A model generated the notes under the pieces. The model ran no database searches and was not told the origin of the DNA. It saw only the letters and a program-made list of their open reading frames with translations. This document shows, one piece after another, positions 5,736 through 57,177 of a DNA stretch of 64,000 nucleotides. Position numbers and translations under genes: made by a program. Every line of letters starts with the position of its first letter. Within the stretch, counting starts at the first letter, position 1. This stretch comes from Lysobacterales bacterium (GTDB lineage: Bacteria > Pseudomonadota > Gammaproteobacteria > Xanthomonadales > SZUA-5). The stretch lies in the NCBI GenBank assembly GCA_022844135.1, contig JALHMG010000035.1, positions 1 through 64,000 of the forward strand, read 5' to 3'.

Positions 5736-5738
5736 GCT

Positions 5739-5894
5739 TGGTTATTGGTTCTTGGTTATGGGTTCTTGGTTATTGGTTTTTGGTTCTCGAACACATGGTC
5801 CACATCGTGCGCATGGGCAGCCTCAGCATGCGGACCATGGGTCCGCGTACCAAAAAGCCAAAGCCCGATAACCGAGGACCAGGAACCAGGAACC
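5739..5894. repeat. F1 inverted pair with central F4-type palindrome
   Basis: GGTT-rich words (5739-5788) face the complementary AACC-rich arm (about 5850-5894), about 60 bp apart. The centre carries GCGGACCATGGGTCCGC (5830-5846), the palindromic core of the F4 repeat. The element fills the gap between the recG stop and the start of the FemAB-like gene and could fold into one large hairpin in the transcript. Confidence 0.8.
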
Positions 5895-14912: not shown

Positions 14913-15552
14913 ATGACTCGCGATTTCACGCCACCGATGACCGACCTCAACACCACGCCGCTGATCGATGTGATGCTGGCCCGGATGTTTCATGAGGGAA
15001 CGCGGATGATCGCGAAGGGCTTTGTGCCGGAATCGAGGCGCGAGGAGGAGGAATGGTTGTTCCATTGCGACGACGAGCAACGAAGAGTCCGGGGCAAAGA
15101 ACGAGCGAGCGCCGCGTTAGCGAGGAAATGGCTGCGGACAGACTGTCAATTCGATTAAGTCAACGAATTCCGCGCCGTTACGAAGAAGTCAGTCCATTTC
15201 CTCGCGACCTCATGAAATGTCCGGGCTAGTGCTGCTGATCATCTTTATGATCGCAGCGCCGGTGCTGGCGCATCGTGTGCCGGTACCGATGCCCAGCAGC
15301 GATGGGCCATCCGCACAGGCGCGCAAACTGATCGAGGTGAGCATGGTCGATGGACAAACGCAGTATCGGCTCGACGACGAACCGATCGCGCTGAGCGCGC
15401 TCGGCGCCGAGTTTTCGGCGTGGGCGGCGATGGGTCACGCGCAGCCCACCGTGCAACTGCTCGCTGCCGAAGACGTGCGCTTCGAGGACATCGCCAGCGT
15501 GCTGGCCAGCGGTCGGCGGGCGGGCGTTCGCCAGATTGGCCTGGCGCCGTGA
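14913..15552 (+). pseudogene. ExbD/TolR-family gene interrupted by a MITE-like element
   Basis: The N-terminal piece (14913-14979) encodes MTDLNTTPLIDVML, the ExbD/TolR cytoplasmic and early transmembrane motif with its essential Asp. The coding sequence resumes at 15230 with VLLIIFMIAAPVLAHRVPVP, the rest of the helix, and runs to the end of a normal periplasmic domain (15552). Between them is a 246-bp element (14980-15225) plus a duplicated tetramer. Removing the element and one tetramer restores GTG ATG CTG GTG CTG CTG, exactly the family sequence VMLVLL, giving an intact protein of about 130 aa. As it stands, translation from the first ATG stops inside the element. An ATG at 15217 could restart the C-terminal part but would lack the Asp. 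No exbB/tolQ partner is in the window. Confidence 0.93.
14980..15225. mobile_element. MITE-like element, copy 1 (inside exbD)
   Basis: A 246-bp element bounded by 18-bp terminal inverted repeats, CCCGGATGTTTCATGAGG on the left and CCTCATGAAATGTCCGGG on the right (two mismatches as inverted arms). It is flanked by CTGG (14976-14979) and CTAG (15226-15229), a 4-bp target duplication with one change. It encodes no transposase, so it is non-autonomous. Internal sequence (GGAATCGAGGCG, GGAATGGTTGTTCCATTGCG) matches copy 2 at 42563-42895 in inverted orientation. The mobilising transposase is not in the window. Confidence 0.92.
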
Positions 15553-19905: not shown

Positions 19906-20035
19906 TCGGCCACACCACCACGGACGTTCCGCAGTTGCGAGCCCCGGGCATTGCGCGGCCGTGGAAGACATCGCCGGGTGTTTGCGAGCAGCCTAGGCGC
20001 TCCAAGATGCGCCTCGATATGCCGCTTGACGACCA

Positions 20036-20188
20036 GAGTGAGGGCACGAGGGCACGAGGGCACGAGGGCACGTGTACTCCGAGCCGCCATGCACAAGAAC
20101 CGCATCGATGTGTGCCGATGCTCTTCCAACACGGCAAAGCCGAAAAGTGCACGTGCCCTCGTGCCCTCGTGCCCTCGTGCCCTCGCTC
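20036..20188. repeat. F2 octamer inverted pair (39-bp arms)
   Basis: The left arm (20036-20074) holds four tandem GAGGGCAC octamers; the right arm (20150-20188) holds four GTGCCCTC octamers. The 39-bp arms are complementary with one mismatch and enclose a 75-bp loop, a very stable hairpin. GGG triplets recur every 8 bp on the G-rich strand of each arm, fitting the G3-N5 quadruplex pattern. The element fills much of the 328-bp glgB-glgX gap (19906-20233), where no gene was seen. Confidence 0.95.
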
Positions 20189-20233
20189 TTTGCAGGAGAT
20201 CTTTTGCGGCACTAATTGTCGGGACGATCGTCC

Positions 20234-22561
20234 TCACGCCGCCACCAGAAACACCACCGCCAACGGCGGCAAGGTCAGTTCAATGGCGCCATCGCGCGCT
20301 TCGATCGTGCCTGCGCCGTTACCCACGTTGCTGCCGCCGTAGAAGGTCGAATCGGTGTTAAGCGCCTCGCGCCAGCGCGAATGGCGTACACGGTTCAATG
20401 GCACGCGATAGCCATGGCGCACGATCGGAGTGAAATTGCAGACAACGATCGCCGCCTGGTCCAGCTCGTCGAAGCGCGCCCACGCCAGGACACTGTTCTC
20501 GCGATCGTCGCCGATCAGCCAGTCGAAGCCTTGCGGCGAATGGTCCAGCCGGTGCAACGCGGGGGTGTCTCGATACAGTCCGTTGAGGTCGCGCACCAGA
20601 CGCTGCACGCCCGCGTGGCGCGGATCGTCGAGCAGTTCCCAGGGCAACGACGCATCGTGATTCCATTCGCTCGTTTGCGCGAACTCCTGGCCCATGAACA
20701 GCAGCTTCTTGCCGGGATGGCCCCACATGAATCCGTAGTAAGCGCGTAAATTCGCAAAGCGCTGCCAGTCGTCGCCCGGCATTTTGCCCAGCATCGAGCG
20801 CTTGCCGTGCACCACCTCGTCATGCGAGATCGGCAGCAGATAGTTTTCGCTGAATGCATACACCAGCCCGAAGGTCATCAGATCGTGGTGCCAGCGCCGA
20901 TGGATCGGATCCTCGGCGATATAGCGCAGCGTGTCGTTCATCCACCCCATGTTCCACTTGAAGTGAAAGCCAAGGCCGCCCGCGTATGTCGGCGCCGAAA
21001 CCCGTGGAAATGCGGTCGACTCCTCGGCGACGGTGATCGCGCCAGGACAGGCGCTGCCGAGATCCTCATTGATCTCCTTGAACAGCGAAATCGCCTCCAG
21101 ATTCTCGCGGCCACCGAAGGCATTCGGCACCCACTGACCATGCTCGCGCGAGTAGTCGCGGTAAAGCATCGAGGCCACGGCATCGACGCGCAATCCGTCG
21201 AGGCCAAAACGCTCCACCCAATAGCGCGCGCTGCCCTTCAAGAAGGTGCGCACCTCGGTGCGCGCGAAGTTGTAGATCAACGTATTCCAATCGCGGTGGA
21301 AGCCTTCTTTGGGATCGCCGTATTCGTAAAGCGCAGTGCCATCGAACTGCGCCAGCCCATGCGCATCGGACGGAAAATGCGCCGGCACCCAATCGAGCAG
21401 CACGCCCACGCCATGCGCGTGACAGGCAGCAATAAAATCCTGGAAGTCCTCGGCCGTCCCGAAGCGCGAGGTCGGCGCGTACATTCCGGTCGGTTGATAA
21501 CCCCACGAGCCGTCAAAGGGGAACTCGGCGATGGGCATCAGTTCGATGTGGGTGAAGCCGAGTGAGGCGGCGTAGGCGGGAAGGGATTGGGCGAGGGAGC
21601 GCCAGGTTGGCGATGTGTCGCGGGAGTTCGCATCTGAAGTCAAAAGCGAGGGCACGAGGGCACGAGGGCACGAGGGCACGCGCTCCGTTCGAACGATCAA
21701 CCGCGAATGGTTTTCTGGGCTATCGAAACCATGGTTGAAGCGCGGATCGTCTCGATGTGCAAGTGCGCTTGCTCTTGCCTCTTTGTCGGTAGCATCGGCA
21801 TGCCCATTCGCAAGCCGTGCCCACGACCCCACATGCACCTCATACACGCTGATCGGCGCATGGCGATCGTTGGCGGCGGCGCGGGGTGCGGGCAAGGGCC
21901 GCAACTGCGGCAACCGCGCAACACGCGAAGCGGTGTTGGGACGCAGCTCTGCAGCGAAGGCGTAGGGATCCGATTTGGCGACCAGCGCGCCATTCGCGCC
22001 AACGATCTCGAACTTGTAGAGATCGCCAATCGCGGCGTGCGGGATGAAGATTTCGAAGACGCCTGCGCGATGGCGCAGGCGCATCGGATGACGGCGGCCG
22101 TCCCAGTTGTTGAAACTGCCAACCACACTGACGCGACGCGCGTTCGGCGCCCAAAGGGCAAAACGTACACCGGACACATCGTCAATCGTCAGCGGATGGG
22201 CGCCGAGCATCTCGAATGGTCGGCCATGACGACCCTCGCGCAGCGCGTCGAGCGCTGAATCGTCTAGCAGCGCGCCGTAAGCGAAAGCGTCGGCATAGCT
22301 GCCGCGCGTGCCATCGTGCCAGGTCACCCGCAGACGATAGTTGCAGCGCGTGGGCAAGCGCGCCTCGAAGAAGCCATCGTCGTGCCGCCGCACGAGCGCC
22401 GCCAGCAACGTGCCGTCGACATCGACCGCATCGACCGCCATCGCGCCTGGCAGCAACGCACGCAGCCAGTGCATGCCATCGAGGGTGTGCAGGCCGAGCA
22501 CCGCAAACGGATCGCTGTGTTCGGCGCGCAGCAGGGCGGCAATGGAGGCGGTGGGCGTCAT
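20234..22561 (-). CDS. glgB: 1,4-alpha-glucan branching enzyme GlgB
   Basis: GH13 enzyme that introduces alpha-1,6 branches into glycogen; 775 aa from MTPTASIAALLRAEHSDPF. A duplicated CBM48-type N-terminus (HSDPFAVLGLH; FEMLGAHPL; VVGSFNNWDGRRHPM) precedes the barrel with YEVHVGSW, DWVPAHFP, LDGLRVDAVASMLYRDYSRE (nucleophile Asp), TVAEES (acid Glu) and ISHDEVVHGKRSML. Between YEVHVGSW (about residues 240-247) and the PTWRSLAQ helix lie about 70 residues, whereas E. coli GlgB has about a dozen; part of the extra stretch (RVPSCPRALVPS, about residues 294-304) is encoded by F2 octamers. The frame is open throughout, so the enzyme may tolerate the expansion. Confidence 0.96.
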   Translation of the reverse strand: MTPTASIAALLRAEHSDPFAVLGLHTLDGMHWLRALLPGAMAVDAVDVDGTLLAALVRRHDDGFFEARLPTRCNYRLRVTWHDGTRGSYADAFAYGALLDDSALDALREGRHGRPFEMLGAHPLTIDDVSGVRFALWAPNARRVSVVGSFNNWDGRRHPMRLRHRAGVFEIFIPHAAIGDLYKFEIVGANGALVAKSDPYAFAAELRPNTASRVARLPQLRPLPAPRAAANDRHAPISVYEVHVGSWARLANGHADATDKEARASALAHRDDPRFNHGFDSPENHSRLIVRTERVPSCPRALVPSLLTSDANSRDTSPTWRSLAQSLPAYAASLGFTHIELMPIAEFPFDGSWGYQPTGMYAPTSRFGTAEDFQDFIAACHAHGVGVLLDWVPAHFPSDAHGLAQFDGTALYEYGDPKEGFHRDWNTLIYNFARTEVRTFLKGSARYWVERFGLDGLRVDAVASMLYRDYSREHGQWVPNAFGGRENLEAISLFKEINEDLGSACPGAITVAEESTAFPRVSAPTYAGGLGFHFKWNMGWMNDTLRYIAEDPIHRRWHHDLMTFGLVYAFSENYLLPISHDEVVHGKRSMLGKMPGDDWQRFANLRAYYGFMWGHPGKKLLFMGQEFAQTSEWNHDASLPWELLDDPRHAGVQRLVRDLNGLYRDTPALHRLDHSPQGFDWLIGDDRENSVLAWARFDELDQAAIVVCNFTPIVRHGYRVPLNRVRHSRWREALNTDSTFYGGSNVGNGAGTIEARDGAIELTLPPLAVVFLVAA
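21648..21679 (+). repeat. F2 octamer array (x4) inside glgB
   Basis: Four perfect GAGGGCAC copies on the plus strand lie within the glgB coding region, read as GTGCCCTC on the coding strand. The repeat belongs to a roughly 170-bp in-frame expansion of glgB that has no counterpart in the standard enzyme. Confidence 0.93.
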
Positions 22562-28522: not shown

Positions 28523-28651
28523 GGTTGCGGGTTCTCGGTTGTTGATTGCTGGTTCTTAGATAAAGCCAGATCCACAACCTTTGAATCGTCCCAGTGCCTG
28601 CGAAAAGCGAAGAAGCACAACCAAGAACCAAGAATCAAGAACCAGGAACCT
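28523..28651. repeat. F1 inverted pair before the ABC ATPase gene
   Basis: A GGTT-rich arm (28523-28557) and an AACC/AAGAACC-rich arm (28617-28651) flank about 60 bp. The right arm ends AGGAACCTGCC directly before the ATPase ATG, so the repeat supplies the apparent Shine-Dalgarno sequence (AGGAA). Confidence 0.82.
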
Positions 28652-32770: not shown

Positions 32771-35700
32771 TCACCGCGCCCGCAGCTCGGCAATCCGCTT
32801 GGCGATGCGCTTGGGCGAGATCGCCTCGGCGGTGCCGAGTTCCTGGGCGAATAACGAGACGCGCAGCTCTTCGATGAGCCAGCGCAATTCGTCGTTGTTC
32901 AGCGTGGCTTGCTCGCGCTGGAACGGAATCACGTCGAGCAATTTCGCCTGGTCTTTGGCCGGCTCGCGCTTGAGGCGTTCGATGCGCAGCACGAGCGCCT
33001 GCAGGTAGCGCGGGTAATGTTGCAGGCGCGCCATGGGAACGCTGGCGGCGAAGCCGGGGGCGATCAGGCGCTGCAGATGATCGCGGGCATCGGCGAGGTT
33101 GGCGGTGGCGTGACCCATCAGCAGCGGCGTCAATTCGGCGCGCGCTTTTTTGGCCTTTTGCAAGATGTCGTCGAGCAGCGCGGCGCGCGCTTGCACGCGC
33201 TCGCCGAGTTGCTTGCGAATGCGTTCGACAAGCGCATGGAAGGCGCTGGCGCTGCGCACGCTGGCGCGTGTCGCTGCCAGATCCAGCAGCGATGCAGCAA
33301 CGATGTCGCTGCGCAGGCTGTCGACCGGCGCAACAACGCCATACGCGAGCGCGGCATCGTTGCTCAGCTTGATGTGCCGCTGCCAATAGCGCTGCACCTC
33401 GAGCGTGTGCCGGCGCAACAAGGTCAGCACGCCGCTGGCGTGCGCCTCGCGTGCCTCGCTGGCATCGGCGAAGGCGCGCACGCCAACGCGCTCGCCCTGC
33501 GCAACGAGCGCCGGAAACGCGGAAATGGCGCCATCGACGATGGCTTCGGGCAGATCGAACGCCGGCCAGTCGCTCAAACCGTCGGCCCAGTACTGCTTGT
33601 CCATACGCGCGGCGAAGGCATCGCGCGCGGCTTGTGCGTATCGCTCCTTCAGCAGCGCCAGGCTGCGGTCGTGATCCAGCGCCTGGCCGTCGGCGTCGAT
33701 CACGCGCAGGTTGAGTTTCAGATGCGGCGACAATTCGGTATCCGAAAAATCGCTGGCCGCTATGGCGACGCCACCGACGCGCGTCAGGAACTCCGCCAGC
33801 GCGTCGACGAAGGGCGCTTTGCGTGGCGGCGTGGCTTCGAGAAAAGCGCGCGCGAAATCCGGTGCGGGAACCACGTGACGACGCAGCGCTTTGGGCAAAG
33901 ACTTGATCAGCGCGGCGGCTTTCTCTTCGCGCCAGCCGGGCACCAGCCAATCGATGTCGGATTCGCTGAGACTCATCAGCACATTGAGCGGAATCGTCAG
34001 CGTGGCGCCATCGCGTTCGCCGTTGGGATCGAAGGCATAGGCCACCGGGAGTTTTTGTCCCGCCAGTTCCAGCGTGTCCGGGAAACGCTCGCTTTCGTCG
34101 CCGCGCGCTTCGGCAACCACCAGATCGTCGAGTGTCCACTTCAGCGCTTCGCACACCTCCGGCGGCGCGTGACGCAGCCAGCGCTGCAGTTGATGCGCGT
34201 CGAGCACATCGGTGGGAATGCGCGTATCGAACCATTCGGCCAGCTCGATCTCGTCGCGCAGAAGGCCGCGGCGGCGCAGCTTTTCTTCCTTGTCTTTGGC
34301 TTGCTGGCGCAGCGCATCGTTATGCGCCAGAACCGGATGGCGCGCCGGGCCCTCGCCGCGCACCAATTGATGGCGAATCATCAGCGCGCGCGCGGTGATC
34401 GGATCGGCGCTCGCATAGTTGATGCGGCGGCGCTGCACGATCGGCAACCCAAACAGCGTGACATCTTCAAAACCGACGGCGCGCCCGCCCTTGAGGTCCC
34501 ACGTCGGCTCGTAGTGCTGGCGTTTGCTCAGGTGCTGACACGCCGGCTCGATCCACGCCGGATCGATGCGCGCGTTCATCAGCGCATAGAGTTTCTCGGT
34601 TTCCAGAATCGTCGCGCTGACGATCCACGGCGGGCCGATCTTCGCTTGACCTGAGCCCGGAAAAATCTGCAACGATCGCCCACGCGGACCGCGATAGCGC
34701 TGCTTATCGTCCTTGCGCGCGACGTGCGTGACGTAGGCGGTGAGGAAGGTGCGGTGGAGGGTTTCGTAGGCCTCTTTGGTGTTGGGCGATGAGAAGCGGG
34801 GCACGGGAAGAGCAGCGGAGCGCTCACTCGATGCTGACTGCATTTGGCCCGGCCAAACGAGCGCGCTGGTGTGACCCGTTCTTTCCCGTGCCCCATGCCC
34901 CGCGCCCCGTGCCCCGCTCTTGAGATGCTCCCCGCTCGCAGGCTCGCCGCCCCACCCCAACTCCCCCACCAACACCCGCAACTGCCGATGCAGCTCGCGC
35001 CATTCGCGCATGCGCAGGTACGACAGGAACTGCGCTCTACACCACTCGCGCAATTGGCTTTGCGTGCGCTCTTCGTGCTCGTGCGTGTAGCGCGTCCACA
35101 GGTTCACGAGCGTCAAGAGATCGCTCTTGTCGTGCACGTCGATCTGATGCGCCGCGTCCGCGAGGCCCCGCGCTTCCGCCGGTCGTTCCCGCGGATCCTG
35201 GATCGATAAGCCAGCGGCGATCACCAGCGCTGTCTCGAACTGATCGGTGTGGCGGGCGGCGACCAAAAAGCGCGCCAGGCGCACGTCGATCGGCAGACGC
35301 GCCATGTCGCGACCGATCGGATTGAGCACGCGCTTGTCATCCAGCGCGCCGAGTTCGCTCAGCAATACATAGCCGTCGTCGATAGCTCGGTCGCTGGGCG
35401 CGTCGATGAACGGGAAGCGTTTGGGATCGCCCAGGCCCAGGTCGAGCATGCGCAAGATCACGCCCGCCAGGGACGAGCGCAGCAACTCGGGGTCGGTATA
35501 CGGCCGGCGCTTCTGGAAGTCGGCCTCGTCGAACAGGCGCACACAAATGCCGCTGGAGGTGCGCCCGCAACGACCCGCGCGCTGATTCGCTGCCGCCTGA
35601 CTGATCGGCTCGATCTGCAGGCGCTGCACTTTGGCGCGCTGGCTGTAGCGATTGACGCGCGCCAGACCAGTGTCGATCACGAAGCGAATGCGTGGCACTG

Positions 35701-42476: not shown

Positions 42477-42562
42477 ATAAATCCTCAACTTAGCTTCAAG
42501 TGTGATGGCGAGACTTCGCCTCAGACCGACGAGCATGTGGGCTTCGCTCGCCGGGAACCTAA

Positions 42563-42895
42563 CCCGCATATTTCATGAGGTCGCGATGAAATGGCTTGAT
42601 TTCGTTGTAACGGCGCTGAAATCTTCGAATTGGTTGAATTGACAGACTGTCCGCTGCCATTTCCTCGCTAACGCGGCTGCGCTTCCTGCTTTGCCCCTCC
42701 GGCCAGCGCATCCATGCGCTGGCGTTCGGCGGCGCGCCGCATGCGGCGCAAAATCCCGCCTCACCCTCGCTCGTTCTTCGCGCCGCACTCTTCGTTGCCC
42801 GTCGTCGCAATGGAACAACCATTCCTCCTCCTCCCGCCTCGATTCCGGCGCAAAGCCCTTTGCGATCTTCCGCGTTCCCTCATGAAAGATGCGGG
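42563..42895. mobile_element. MITE-like element, copy 2
   Basis: 333 bp bounded by CCCGCATATTTCATGAGG and CCTCATGAAAGATGCGGG, with perfect 4-bp direct flanks CTAA (42559-42562 and 42896-42899). It matches copy 1 (14980-15225) in inverted orientation, but has about 85 bp extra in the middle, including a GCGCATGCGGCGC-type GC-rich stretch. No transposase. It lies between the secreted-protein gene and speE; the rest of this gap, to 43024, shows no gene. Confidence 0.92.
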
Positions 42896-43024
42896 CTAAC
42901 CGACATACCCTGCCGAGCGCTTCGCGCTCGCGCCCCTTGACTCGAAGGGGCTGAGGCAGGAGCCTGACGTGAGACTGCACCTGTGGCCCGGAGTTCAAGC
43001 AGACTCGAACTCAAGGCGCCCCGT

Positions 43025-53891: not shown

Positions 53892-53938
53892 CCGCGATTC
53901 AAGTTTGAGCGTCGACAGTGCGCTCTTGTTCGGGTTTT

Positions 53939-54278
53939 GGTTCGCGGACCCATGGTCCGCAGCTCTGGCTTTGGTTCGCGGACCCATGGTCCGCAGCTCT
54001 GGCTTTGGTTCGCGGACCCATGGTCCGCAGCTTTAGCTCTGGTACGCGGACCCATGGTCCGCAGCTTTAGCTCTGGTACGCGGACCCATGGTCCGCAGCT
54101 TTAGCTCTGGTACGCGGACCCATGGTCCGCAGCTTTAGCTCTGGTACGCGGACCCGTGGTCCGCAGCTTTAGCTCTGGTACGCGGACCCATGGTCCGCAG
54201 CTTTAGCTCTGGTACGCGGACCCATGGTCCGCAGCTTTAGCTCTGGTACGCGGACCCATGGTCCGCAGCTTTGGCTGT
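53939..54278 (+). repeat. F4 34-bp tandem array (10 units)
   Basis: Ten direct 34-bp units, each containing GCGGACCCATGGTCCGC (7-bp arms around CAT) and a GCAGCTTTAGCTCT-type tail; unit 7 has one substitution (GTGG). A single inverted, diverged unit follows at 54320-54343 after a TGCCTCAG...CTGAGGCA stem (54279-54320). Every unit can form a hairpin; the array has no spacers, so it is not CRISPR. It occupies most of the gap between the CopD-like gene and ppc (53892-54471), where no gene was seen. Confidence 0.96.
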
Positions 54279-54471
54279 TGCCTCAGCGCTCTTCGACTTG
54301 AAGCCCCGCAATCTGAGGCATGCGGAGCATAGGTCCGCGTACCCAGAAGCGCGCAGGCACAGCACACCTCCGACAGCGTTCCCAGCCCTCCTGCATTCGA
54401 ATGCGCTGCGGCAAACGCGTTCCGGGTCTGCTACGCTGCGCTGCAGCATTTTGTTCATCGAGGAGGCGCCC

Positions 54472-57177
54472 ATGCCGCGGTCCGTCGTATTCGAAGCACG
54501 CGATCAGCGATTGCGCGAGGATGTCAGCCTGCTCGGGCGCCTGGTCGGCGAGATGCTCACCGATCAGCTCGGCACCAGCTTCTTCTCGCTGCTGGAGCAG
54601 GTCCGCGGATGTGCGATTGCGCGCCGCGAGGGCGAGACGGAACGCCTCGCCGAACTGTCTGCGCTGTTAAGCAATTTGCCGACGACGACCGCGCTCGATC
54701 TGGTGCGCGCGTTTTCGAGCTACTTTCAGCTCGTCAACATCGCCGAGCAAGTGCATCGCATTCGTCGCCGTCGCGAATTCCAGGCGGCCGATGCGGGCCC
54801 GCAACCCGGCAGTATTCTCGACACACTGCAACGCCTGAAAGCCGATGGCGTCGATGTCGACACGCTGCGCAGCAGCTTGCGCAAACTGCTGCTGGAACCG
54901 GTGTTTACCGCGCATCCCACCGAAGCGACCCGGCGCACCTTGCTGGAGAAAGAGCAGCGCATCGTGCGCGGCCTGATCGAGCGTTTGGATGCGGGGCAAA
55001 CGCCACAGGAAGATCGCGCGCGGCTGGCGCAGATCCGAATGCATATCACTGCGGCGTGGCAGACGGCCGAGTTTTCCGATGTGCGACCTACGGTCGAACA
55101 AGAGCGCGAGCACGTGCTGTTCTATTTGTCGGATGTGCTCTATCGCGCCATCCCTGCGTACTACTGGGAGTTCGAGCGCTGCCTCGCCGCGACCTATCCC
55201 GGCGTATCGCTGCTCGGCATGCGCCGCCCATTGGTGCGTTTCGGCACCTGGGTGGGCGGCGATATGGATGGCAATCCGAACGTCGGCGCGACCACCATTC
55301 GCGAAGCGCTCGCAGCGCATCGACGTGTGCTGTTCGCCCGTTATCAAACCGAAATCAAGGAATTGGCGCTGATCCTGAGCCAGTCGAGCGCGCGGGTCAC
55401 CATCGATACCGCCGTGACCGATCGCGTCAAGCACTACGCCAGGCAGCACCGTCGCGCCTGGAGCGCGATCGCCGAACGCTATCGCGACATGCCGTATCGG
55501 TGTTTGTTGACGCTGATGTCGGCGCGATTGCAAGCCACGCAGGAGGGACGCGGCGGTTACGAAGGGCCGGGCGAGTTTCTGAGCGATCTGGACGCCATCG
55601 CCCTGTCGTTGACGCGCAACGGCGGGCGCCACGCCGGCTTACATCCGTTCCAGCGTTTCCAGACGCGCGCCCATACCTTCGGCTTTCATCTCGCGGCACT
55701 GGATGTGCGTCAACACGCGGCCGTGCATCGCCAGGCGCTGGCGGCGCTGGGCATTACCGATTTGCATGCAGCGATCGCCGCTGAGCCTGGTTCGCGGAAC
55801 CATGGTCCGCTTGCTGCGCCTGGCCATCCGCCAGATGCGGACCGTGGGTCCGCGTACCAAGACGCGCGCGCCGTGCTGGAGGTGTTCGTCGCCCTCAAAG
55901 AAGCGCACGCGCGTTATGGCCCCGCTGCGCTCGGGGTGTTCATCGTCAGCATGAGCGAGAGCGCCGCAGATACGCTGAGCGTGCTCGCATTGGCGCGCAT
56001 CGCCGGCACCGACCCGGACTTGCTGGATGTGGCGCCGCTGTTCGAAACGGTCGACGATCTGGCGGCAGCGCCGACGATTCTGCGCGAGCTGCTCGACGAT
56101 CCGGTGTATCGCGCGCATTTGCGCGCCCGAAACAATCGCCAGATCGTGATGCTCGGGTACTCCGACAGCAATAAAGACGGCGGCATCGCCGCGTCGCGTT
56201 TTGCGCTGCAGGAGGCGCAGGCGGAACTGTCGCAGATCGCGCAGAGCGCCGGCATCGACCTGAGCTTCTTCCACGGCCGCGGCGGCACCGCCTCGCGCGG
56301 TGGCGGTCGCACCGAGCGCGCGGTCGTTGCCTCGCCCACCGGCAGCGTCAACGGCCATTTGCGGCTCACCGAGCAGGGCGAGGTGATCCATCGCAAGTAC
56401 GGCATCCGCGCCATCGCGCTGCGCAATATCGAGCAGGCGTTCTCAGGCTTGCTGGTGGCGACCACCCGCAAAGAAGCTGATCGCCGCGAGAGCCAGTGGC
56501 GACAGGTGATGGCGACCATTGCCGATGCGTCGCGCACGCACTACCGCGAGCTGATCTACAACGATCCGGAGTTCGCCGACTATTTCCGTGCGGCCACGCC
56601 GATCGATGTGATCGAGCGCATGAAGATCAGCTCGCGCCCGAGCCTGCGCAAGGGCAACGCCTTTCGCATCGAGCAGCTTCGAGCCATTCCCTGGGTGTTC
56701 GCCTGGTCGCAAAGCCGCCACGGTTTGCCCGGCTGGTATGGCCTGGGCACCGGCATTGAGCGCGCCATCGCGACGCATGGCGCGGAAGTGCTTACCGACA
56801 TGACCGCCGACTGGCCGTTCTTCCGCTTGCTGCTGGAAGACGTGGAAATGGTACTGGCCAAGAGCGACAGCGATATCGCCGCGCGCTACTCGGCGTTGTC
56901 GCCGCTGCACGCACGCTACTGGCCTTCGATCGAAGCCGAATGGCAACGCACCGAGCGACTGATCCTGGCGCTCAAGGGCGAAAGCCAGTTGCTCAATTAC
57001 GACCGTCGCCTGCAGCGCACGATTCGCTTGCGCAACCCCTACGTCGATCCGATCAGTGTGCTGCAGATCGATTTACTGCTGCGCTGGCGCGGCGGCGAGC
57101 GCCAGGACGATGCGCTGTTCGAGGCGCTGGTCAGCACCGTCAACGGCATCGCGCGGGGGTTGCAGAATACGGGTTAG
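54472..57177 (+). CDS. ppc: Phosphoenolpyruvate carboxylase
   Basis: About 901-aa anaplerotic enzyme making oxaloacetate from PEP and bicarbonate, from MPRSVVFEARDQ with a GAGGAGG ribosome-binding site. Catalytic His148 is in FTAHPTEATRR; GYSDSNKDGG, FFHGRGGTASRGGG and the C-terminal LRNPYVDPISVLQIDLL are conserved. Residues about 440-463 (PGSRNHGPLAAPGHPPDADR and following) are encoded by an F4 inverted pair, in frame, between TDLHAAIAAE and RAVLEVFVALKEA. An upstream start would translate the F4 region before the gene and is rejected. Confidence 0.97.
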   Translation: MPRSVVFEARDQRLREDVSLLGRLVGEMLTDQLGTSFFSLLEQVRGCAIARREGETERLAELSALLSNLPTTTALDLVRAFSSYFQLVNIAEQVHRIRRRREFQAADAGPQPGSILDTLQRLKADGVDVDTLRSSLRKLLLEPVFTAHPTEATRRTLLEKEQRIVRGLIERLDAGQTPQEDRARLAQIRMHITAAWQTAEFSDVRPTVEQEREHVLFYLSDVLYRAIPAYYWEFERCLAATYPGVSLLGMRRPLVRFGTWVGGDMDGNPNVGATTIREALAAHRRVLFARYQTEIKELALILSQSSARVTIDTAVTDRVKHYARQHRRAWSAIAERYRDMPYRCLLTLMSARLQATQEGRGGYEGPGEFLSDLDAIALSLTRNGGRHAGLHPFQRFQTRAHTFGFHLAALDVRQHAAVHRQALAALGITDLHAAIAAEPGSRNHGPLAAPGHPPDADRGSAYQDARAVLEVFVALKEAHARYGPAALGVFIVSMSESAADTLSVLALARIAGTDPDLLDVAPLFETVDDLAAAPTILRELLDDPVYRAHLRARNNRQIVMLGYSDSNKDGGIAASRFALQEAQAELSQIAQSAGIDLSFFHGRGGTASRGGGRTERAVVASPTGSVNGHLRLTEQGEVIHRKYGIRAIALRNIEQAFSGLLVATTRKEADRRESQWRQVMATIADASRTHYRELIYNDPEFADYFRAATPIDVIERMKISSRPSLRKGNAFRIEQLRAIPWVFAWSQSRHGLPGWYGLGTGIERAIATHGAEVLTDMTADWPFFRLLLEDVEMVLAKSDSDIAARYSALSPLHARYWPSIEAEWQRTERLILALKGESQLLNYDRRLQRTIRLRNPYVDPISVLQIDLLLRWRGGERQDDALFEALVSTVNGIARGLQNTG
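55789..55858. repeat. F4 inverted pair inside ppc
   Basis: A GGTTCGCGGAACCATGG unit (55789-55810) faces an inverted ATGCGGACCGTGGGTCCGCG unit (55835-55858) 24 bp away, in frame in ppc. Each unit carries the F4 palindrome and together they can form one larger hairpin. Confidence 0.93.

Follow-up and report, generated by a model that had tools for sequence, protein, structure and literature searches.

Intragenic REPs of the GTAG or CGTC type have been described as singlets, dimers and clusters within open reading frames, mostly of known proteins (PMC3733652). According to that study, REP dimers or groups code for 20-30 amino acids and larger regions for 43-82 amino acids, most REPs are intergenic, and loops and linkers are suggested to tolerate them. 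The REPINs of P. fluorescens SBW25 are described as inverted REP doublets with a predicted hairpin, which are treated there as segments of 71 and 110 bp, are linked to RAYTs and are primarily extragenic (PMC3116915). REPs in inverted orientation on both sides of a RAYT gene have also been reported (PMC2817692). The palindromic elements of Rickettsia, about 150 bp long, are found in open reading frames in nearly half of the cases and lie in frame inside unrelated conserved genes (PMC10969869). Enterobacterial RU elements are MITE-like repeats of 103-168 bp with open frames that are part of annotated genes, and the abstract of that report states no link to a RAYT (PMC2759123).

The window analysed here is a stretch of 64,000 nucleotides from a Lysobacterales bacterium (GCA_022844135.1, contig JALHMG010000035.1, positions 1 to 64,000), in which two opposed units of a repeat family termed F4 lie inside ppc, the gene of phosphoenolpyruvate carboxylase. 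Like the REPs of PMC3733652, F4 is in part intragenic, sited in loops or linkers and mostly intergenic, but its tag is GTAC rather than GTAG or CGTC, and its longest coding stretch, in a hybrid sensor kinase, amounts to about 160 amino acids as compared to the 43-82 given there. The F4 hosts are Ppc, a PxpC-like protein and the hybrid kinase, while the main text of that study contains none of the terms phosphoenolpyruvate, carboxylase and histidine kinase; the literature searched, which for that study means its main text, gave no account of a REP lying within ppc. In contrast to the SBW25 REPINs as described (PMC3116915), F4 occurs mostly in tandem clusters, with few copies in genes, and its RAYT differs from those presented in PMC2817692 in being flanked by arrays of 8 and 11 units with the tag GTAC. 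F4 does not belong to the Rickettsia palindromic elements as characterized in PMC10969869, being rarely genic, consisting in ppc of a 72-bp pair of 23-bp REPs and residing in a host other than Rickettsia. It shares with the RU elements (PMC2759123) the property of a small mobile repeat coding within genes, but it is RAYT-linked. Since in-frame intragenic REPs are on record, as are the Rickettsia palindromic elements, the ppc case is a clean new example and not a new kind of element. What is new is the ppc instance itself, a family with the tag GTAC, a kinase linker of about 160 amino acids coded by REPs and a hint of a preferred frame based on three genes.

F4 as a RAYT-linked REP family

The F4 unit (TGGTACGCGGACCCATGGTCCGC) is 23 bp long, with a stem of 7 bp and a loop of 3 nt. 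In the genome searched, a draft assembly of 5.34 Mb in 75 contigs, the exact core was found in 225 copies and headed matches with up to three mismatches in 310 copies (165 forward, 145 reverse). The respective numbers for a reversed-pattern control were 0 and 7. F4 is thus a short palindrome within the range of about 20-40 bp and of high copy number, as is typical of REPs. Because the consensus tag beside the stem is GTAC, where the published superfamily has the canonical GTAG, it was not filed as a GTAG REP but as a RAYT-linked REP with a GTAC tag; the F4 element of the earlier note is accordingly a REP/REPIN with a RAYT. Single palindromes at L205, L207, L208, L210 and L211 were called on both strands (29 bp), with head-like sequence on either side.

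Four Y1_Tnp matches are present in the genome and one of them, at locus L021 (G000:C25), is flanked by F4, with 8 units on the forward strand before the gene and 11 on the reverse strand after it, i.e., by inverted REPs. The encoded protein passes the REP_Tyr_transpos model NF047646 narrowly (81.9 bits, cut-off 80). RAYT relatives of 54 and 52% identity adjoin 7-3-7 palindromes with other stems (GCGGGC...GCCCGC), and a third relative (46% identity) adjoins a different palindrome of 8-3-8 type. At L019 and L020 string search found no complete F4 core, other repeats being present, and L022 holds a partial match without an array. At L020 the Y1_Tnp gene (G000:C18:90591-90935) is accompanied by long direct repeats that contain no F4 core, and about 30 codons nearby read X.

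Concerning the placement of the family, we examined 51 clusters, which are part of those in the genome: 40 came from the window, from 30 pieces of 40 kb chosen regardless of F4 and from targeted stretches including L021, and 11 were further targeted ones, all targeted clusters being drawn from among the matches listed. A single unit with 4 mismatches (L046:35620), probably due to chance, was kept in this count. According to a simple codon-usage gene finder the large pieces are 87% coding, yet 3 of the 51 clusters were located fully inside supported genes, as expected for a mostly intergenic RAYT-linked REP. Four others (L110, L132, L206 and L214) touch a gene start or edge or a weak gene call. 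Within the 1.2 Mb chosen regardless of F4, one of 13 clusters is genic, namely that of the kinase, and one is an edge case. Twenty large open frames around other clusters were also considered; for 18 of them no Pfam family was matched convincingly, and these were taken as spurious, while the kinase and a carboxyltransferase stood. An example of an intergenic copy in the window is the unit at 5830-5852 (reverse strand), which has a FemAB-like gene on one side and a RecG-like gene on the other and is accompanied by a degenerate partner with 5 mismatches at 5781-5803.

The exact core is absent from the seven other genomes of the bacterial family that were searched besides the congener G004. The latter has 4 F4-like matches with up to three mismatches vs. 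5 in the reversed control; all four come from two palindromes with exact cores, which were not counted as members of F4, being without the TGGT head. A close RAYT was not found in G004 either, where the best match had an E-value of 4e-4.

The inverted pair inside ppc and its origin

The ppc gene (54472-57177, forward strand) encodes a protein of 901 amino acids. The frame is complete, PF00311 being covered from position 1 to 919 of 919 (E=6e-258), and the score against NF000584 is 867 bits compared to a cut-off of 815. The insert at 55788-55859 comprises 72 bp, or about 24 codons, inside residues 439-463, with the heads of its two units pointing outward. Its left arm (55788-55810, forward strand) carries a rare GGTTC variant, codes for G-S-R-N-H-G-P and has 2 mismatches to the F4 unit; a spacer of 26 nt (55811-55836, forward strand) follows; the right arm (55837-55859, reverse strand) codes for A-D-R-G-S-A-Y and has 1 mismatch. 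The earlier note, made from the letters of the window, had described an in-frame pair of opposed F4 units within a loop of Ppc, which is borne out by our analysis, although the span it gave (55789-55858) corresponds to the inner 70 bp of the full insert.

Neighbouring F4 units are oriented heads-outward in 26 cases, heads-inward in 4 and directly, in tandem arrays, in 164. Nine of 25 listed outward pairs, among them that of ppc, measure 70-73 bp. For the ppc pair as single-stranded DNA, a folding energy of -28.6 kcal/mol (z = -6.8) was computed, which none of 200 shuffled sequences equalled. Favoured inverted doublets (26 vs. 4), a preferred length (9/25) and a fold into a single hairpin are the hallmarks of a REPIN, and the ppc insert is one: two inverted REPs and a spacer, of fitting size and fold.

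The site of the insert is a loop that differs in length and sequence among relatives. The E. coli PEPC structure 1fiy aligns to residues 13-901 of Ppc, but poorly at the insert. In an AlphaFold model based on a four-row alignment (mean pLDDT 59), residues 437-458 are predicted as coil between helices, with pLDDT below 50 at residues 441-458.

We consider it probable, at roughly 0.8, that the ppc pair is a REPIN insertion mobilised by a RAYT, within a family purged where harmful and tolerated in variable loops. Judging from what is known of such families, the RAYT at G000:C25 is the most likely agent of its movement in trans, its two inverted REPs and spacer folding into one single-stranded hairpin, and it would have landed in a Ppc loop that was already variable among relatives. 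With six open frames and a net change that is a multiple of three, the predicted Ppc frame would have been kept and about 24 mostly polar residues gained. Gene-breaking insertions of F4 were presumably removed by selection, which would explain why F4 is nearly always intergenic and why its rare genic copies are in frame in variable or inter-domain stretches. The direct basis of this reading consists of the F4 family, the RAYT flanks, the architecture of the pair, its position, its frame and the fact that the congener lacks the headed family; from these we infer mobilisation by the RAYT, the direction and date of the insertion, translation in the cell and the neutrality of the peptide.

The date was considered by comparison with one congener, G004, whose ppc is about 81% identical at the DNA level and whose Ppc is identical to that of the MAG L016. 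In G004/L016 the orthologue has 889 amino acids instead of 901. The G004 loop is 36 bp shorter in an alignment that is not clean, and the difference in ppc length is a multiple of three. Neither an empty site nor a target duplication was found at base resolution in the G004 ppc, with its about 81% identity and its loop that is not cleanly alignable. An insertion after the split of the congeners fits the absence of the headed F4 family from G004. Alternatively, the REPIN may have entered ppc before the split and decayed in G004, a rival on the date which is compatible with the mechanism proposed above. Part of the G004 loop does resemble the right F4 arm (as good in 0 of 832 gene windows and in 13 of 1,000 shuffles), and the two proteins are alike at this point (EADR-SAH in G004, DADRGSAY here). 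However, the matches of the left arm (47/832 windows, 78/1,000 shuffles as good) and of the whole insert (152/832 and 60/1,000) to the G004 loop were not significant, and G004 is devoid of both headed F4 units and a close RAYT. An earlier entry thus seems rather unlikely to us, though it is the alternative that fares best.

A large F4 array lies between ppc and the preceding gene, and the earlier note had regarded a local transfer from it as plausible. The array is indeed present, as 10 direct units of 34-bp period at 53938-54266 (forward strand, intergenic, 5' of ppc), but it is located 1.4-1.5 kb upstream of the pair and not 1.3 kb as had been stated. Its first three units carry GGTTC, and it is closed by an inverted unit with its head outward (54322-54344, reverse strand), which leaves about 130 bp to the start codon of ppc. 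The variant provides the argument for copying or conversion of the ppc pair from the array, instead of insertion of a dispersed REPIN: GGTTC, with T at position 5, occurs exactly in five units genome-wide, i.e., the three of the array, the left arm of ppc and C6:154486, and in the sampled sequence it was found in 4 of 231 units (up to three mismatches), all within the window. This is, however, one base common to the array and one arm, which could reflect conversion of that arm or coincidence. Furthermore, the array consists of 34-bp direct repeats, and its terminal spacer of 55 nt is unlike that of ppc (18,305 of 20,000 shuffles as good).

The ppc spacer was also compared with the spacers of the 24 other pairs. 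Positions 55816-55831 match, at 15 of 16 bp and at an equal distance from the right arm, the spacer found in the REPIN array of the kinase gene (L049), which lies on another contig. The gapped score was reached by 7 of 20,000 shuffles, and the ungapped comparison anchored at the right (16/21) by none of 20,000. The spacers of the REPINs at L050 and L034 agree with it at 14 of 21 positions each with the register kept (gapped score reached by 86 and 178 of 20,000 shuffles, respectively), while ten others compared in register agree at 4 to 12 of 21. These matches point to dispersal of whole REPINs. Copying of the whole array is not supported, because the ppc spacer matches the kinase-gene REPIN and not the neighbouring array, so that of the proposed local transfer the shared GGTTC of the left arm stands and the spacer speaks against it. 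The two observations would be compatible if one arm had been converted. Overall, a local origin of the pair appears improbable, and somewhat more so than an entry before the split.

Further genic repeats

In addition to ppc, F4 clusters were found inside two genes, those of a hybrid sensor kinase and a PxpC-like carboxyltransferase, and all three are in frame. The kinase gene (G000:C9; L049:5566-10032, reverse strand) has its F4 stretch at L049:6373-6856, where nine units fill residues 1059-1220, between the HATPase_c domain (937-1045) and the receiver domain (1242-1351). The resulting linker of about 160 amino acids proceeds largely in steps of 108 bp (36 amino acids), and the orthologues in G004 and G001 have shorter and different linkers. 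The second gene (G000:C44; L137:1398-2930, reverse strand) encodes a CT_A_B carboxyltransferase that resembles PxpC but scores under the cut-off of the PxpC model. Its F4 stretch (L137:1693-1890) holds five units in steps of 42 bp, at the point where the domain match splits into two stretches, and the protein is here 77 amino acids longer than in G004, G002 and G001.

According to the earlier note, frame-breaking insertions as frequent as in-frame ones would count against its reading, which was not the case in the part that was tested. Both neighbours of 15 same-strand intergenic clusters were compared with Pfam, and in none did one family continue across the element, although at three of them (L032, L106 and L130) one neighbour is without any family. 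The EAL domain to the left at L106 is incomplete, but the truncation affects its start, on the side remote from F4. This check covered same-strand clusters other than L046, L136, L205, L212 and the edge case L206, and at the array upstream of ppc it concerned ppc alone, which is intact. At L032 it extended to 118 of the 308 residues of one neighbour, and at some loci, L124 and L128 among them, one neighbouring gene runs off the end of the stretch.

The earlier note had also stated that three conserved enzymes of the window carry three different repeat families. The gene names GlgB and HrpA proved correct, and the statement holds for Ppc and GlgB, while it is doubtful for HrpA. In glgB, a 207-bp segment (21611-21817, reverse strand; residues 254-322) is almost wholly missing from four orthologues, GlgB being 62-67 amino acids longer there than these relatives. 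It consists in part of a non-F4 family with GAGGGCAC 8-mers, which elsewhere forms inverted pairs, e.g., 20035-20078 and 20146-20192. In hrpA, a run of CCCCGTG heptamers, also distinct from F4, occupies a variable linker (34885-34919, reverse strand). As every relative aligned has here a linker of its own sequence and length, and the protein of the congener is longer, the heptamers need not be an insertion, and HrpA is a weaker case of one than GlgB.

Other repeats of the window include arrays of TTGGTTC-type heptamers at 1-145, 5737-5785 and 28618-28650, one of which lies directly beside a degenerate F4 unit. Two long repeats of about 119 and 131 bp are common to 14979-15229 and 42559-42896, with order and spacing changed, and are possibly the ends of another mobile element.

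Reading frame and implications

It had been emphasized that the repeats inside genes are without a stop codon. The frame in ppc is indeed open, but this says little: neither the F4 unit nor the ppc insert has a stop in any of the six frames, so their openness is no evidence of selection, and we rejected an argument for selection on this ground. The units that read head-first share one frame, of the GTRTHGP type, in all three genes (1/1, 5/5 and 4/4 units); an overlapping call with 4 mismatches at L137:1699 (phase 0) was left out of this count, since it represents the palindrome already called at 1693. For the opposed arms, ppc and the carboxyltransferase agree in frame, whereas the kinase uses another. 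The steps of the two genic arrays, 42 and 108 bp, are both multiples of three, and among the other array loci 4 of 19 (L130, L132, L136 and L139) proceed mainly at multiples of three. With three genes, these data are a hint of one preferred frame for genic F4 units.

The shared frame and the two step lengths could be taken to mean that the insert has been selected for, its peptide or mRNA hairpin altering the stability, regulation or translation of Ppc. Nevertheless, three genes would share one frame by chance in 1 of 9 cases, purifying selection alone predicts that the frame is kept, and the site is a loop variable in relatives; we thus regard a selected function as very unlikely. Assembly error or chance similarity, for which the draft state of the assembly could be invoked, is extremely unlikely given the control counts of 0 and 7 against 225 exact cores and 310 headed matches, the 77 F4 matches compared with 7 in shuffled sequence (up to four mismatches) and the three in-frame cases in conserved genes.

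Insertion of a RAYT-mobilised REPIN therefore remains our preferred reading. A more speculative idea, which we hold to be rather doubtful at present, is that this lineage draws protein linkers from its REPINs: one surviving frame would yield a polar, flexible peptide of the GTRTHGP type, and subsequent amplification by whole codons (42 or 108 bp) would produce repeat linkers such as the one of about 160 residues between the kinase and receiver domains.

In one genome and its relatives, the ppc case shows in what way core enzymes can take up a RAYT-linked REPIN family to which genes are otherwise almost closed, and genic REPINs test by nature where in a protein inserted DNA is tolerated. The kinase and the carboxyltransferase suggest that insertions of this type are able to expand to long linkers made of repeats, by which new protein sequence might arise.
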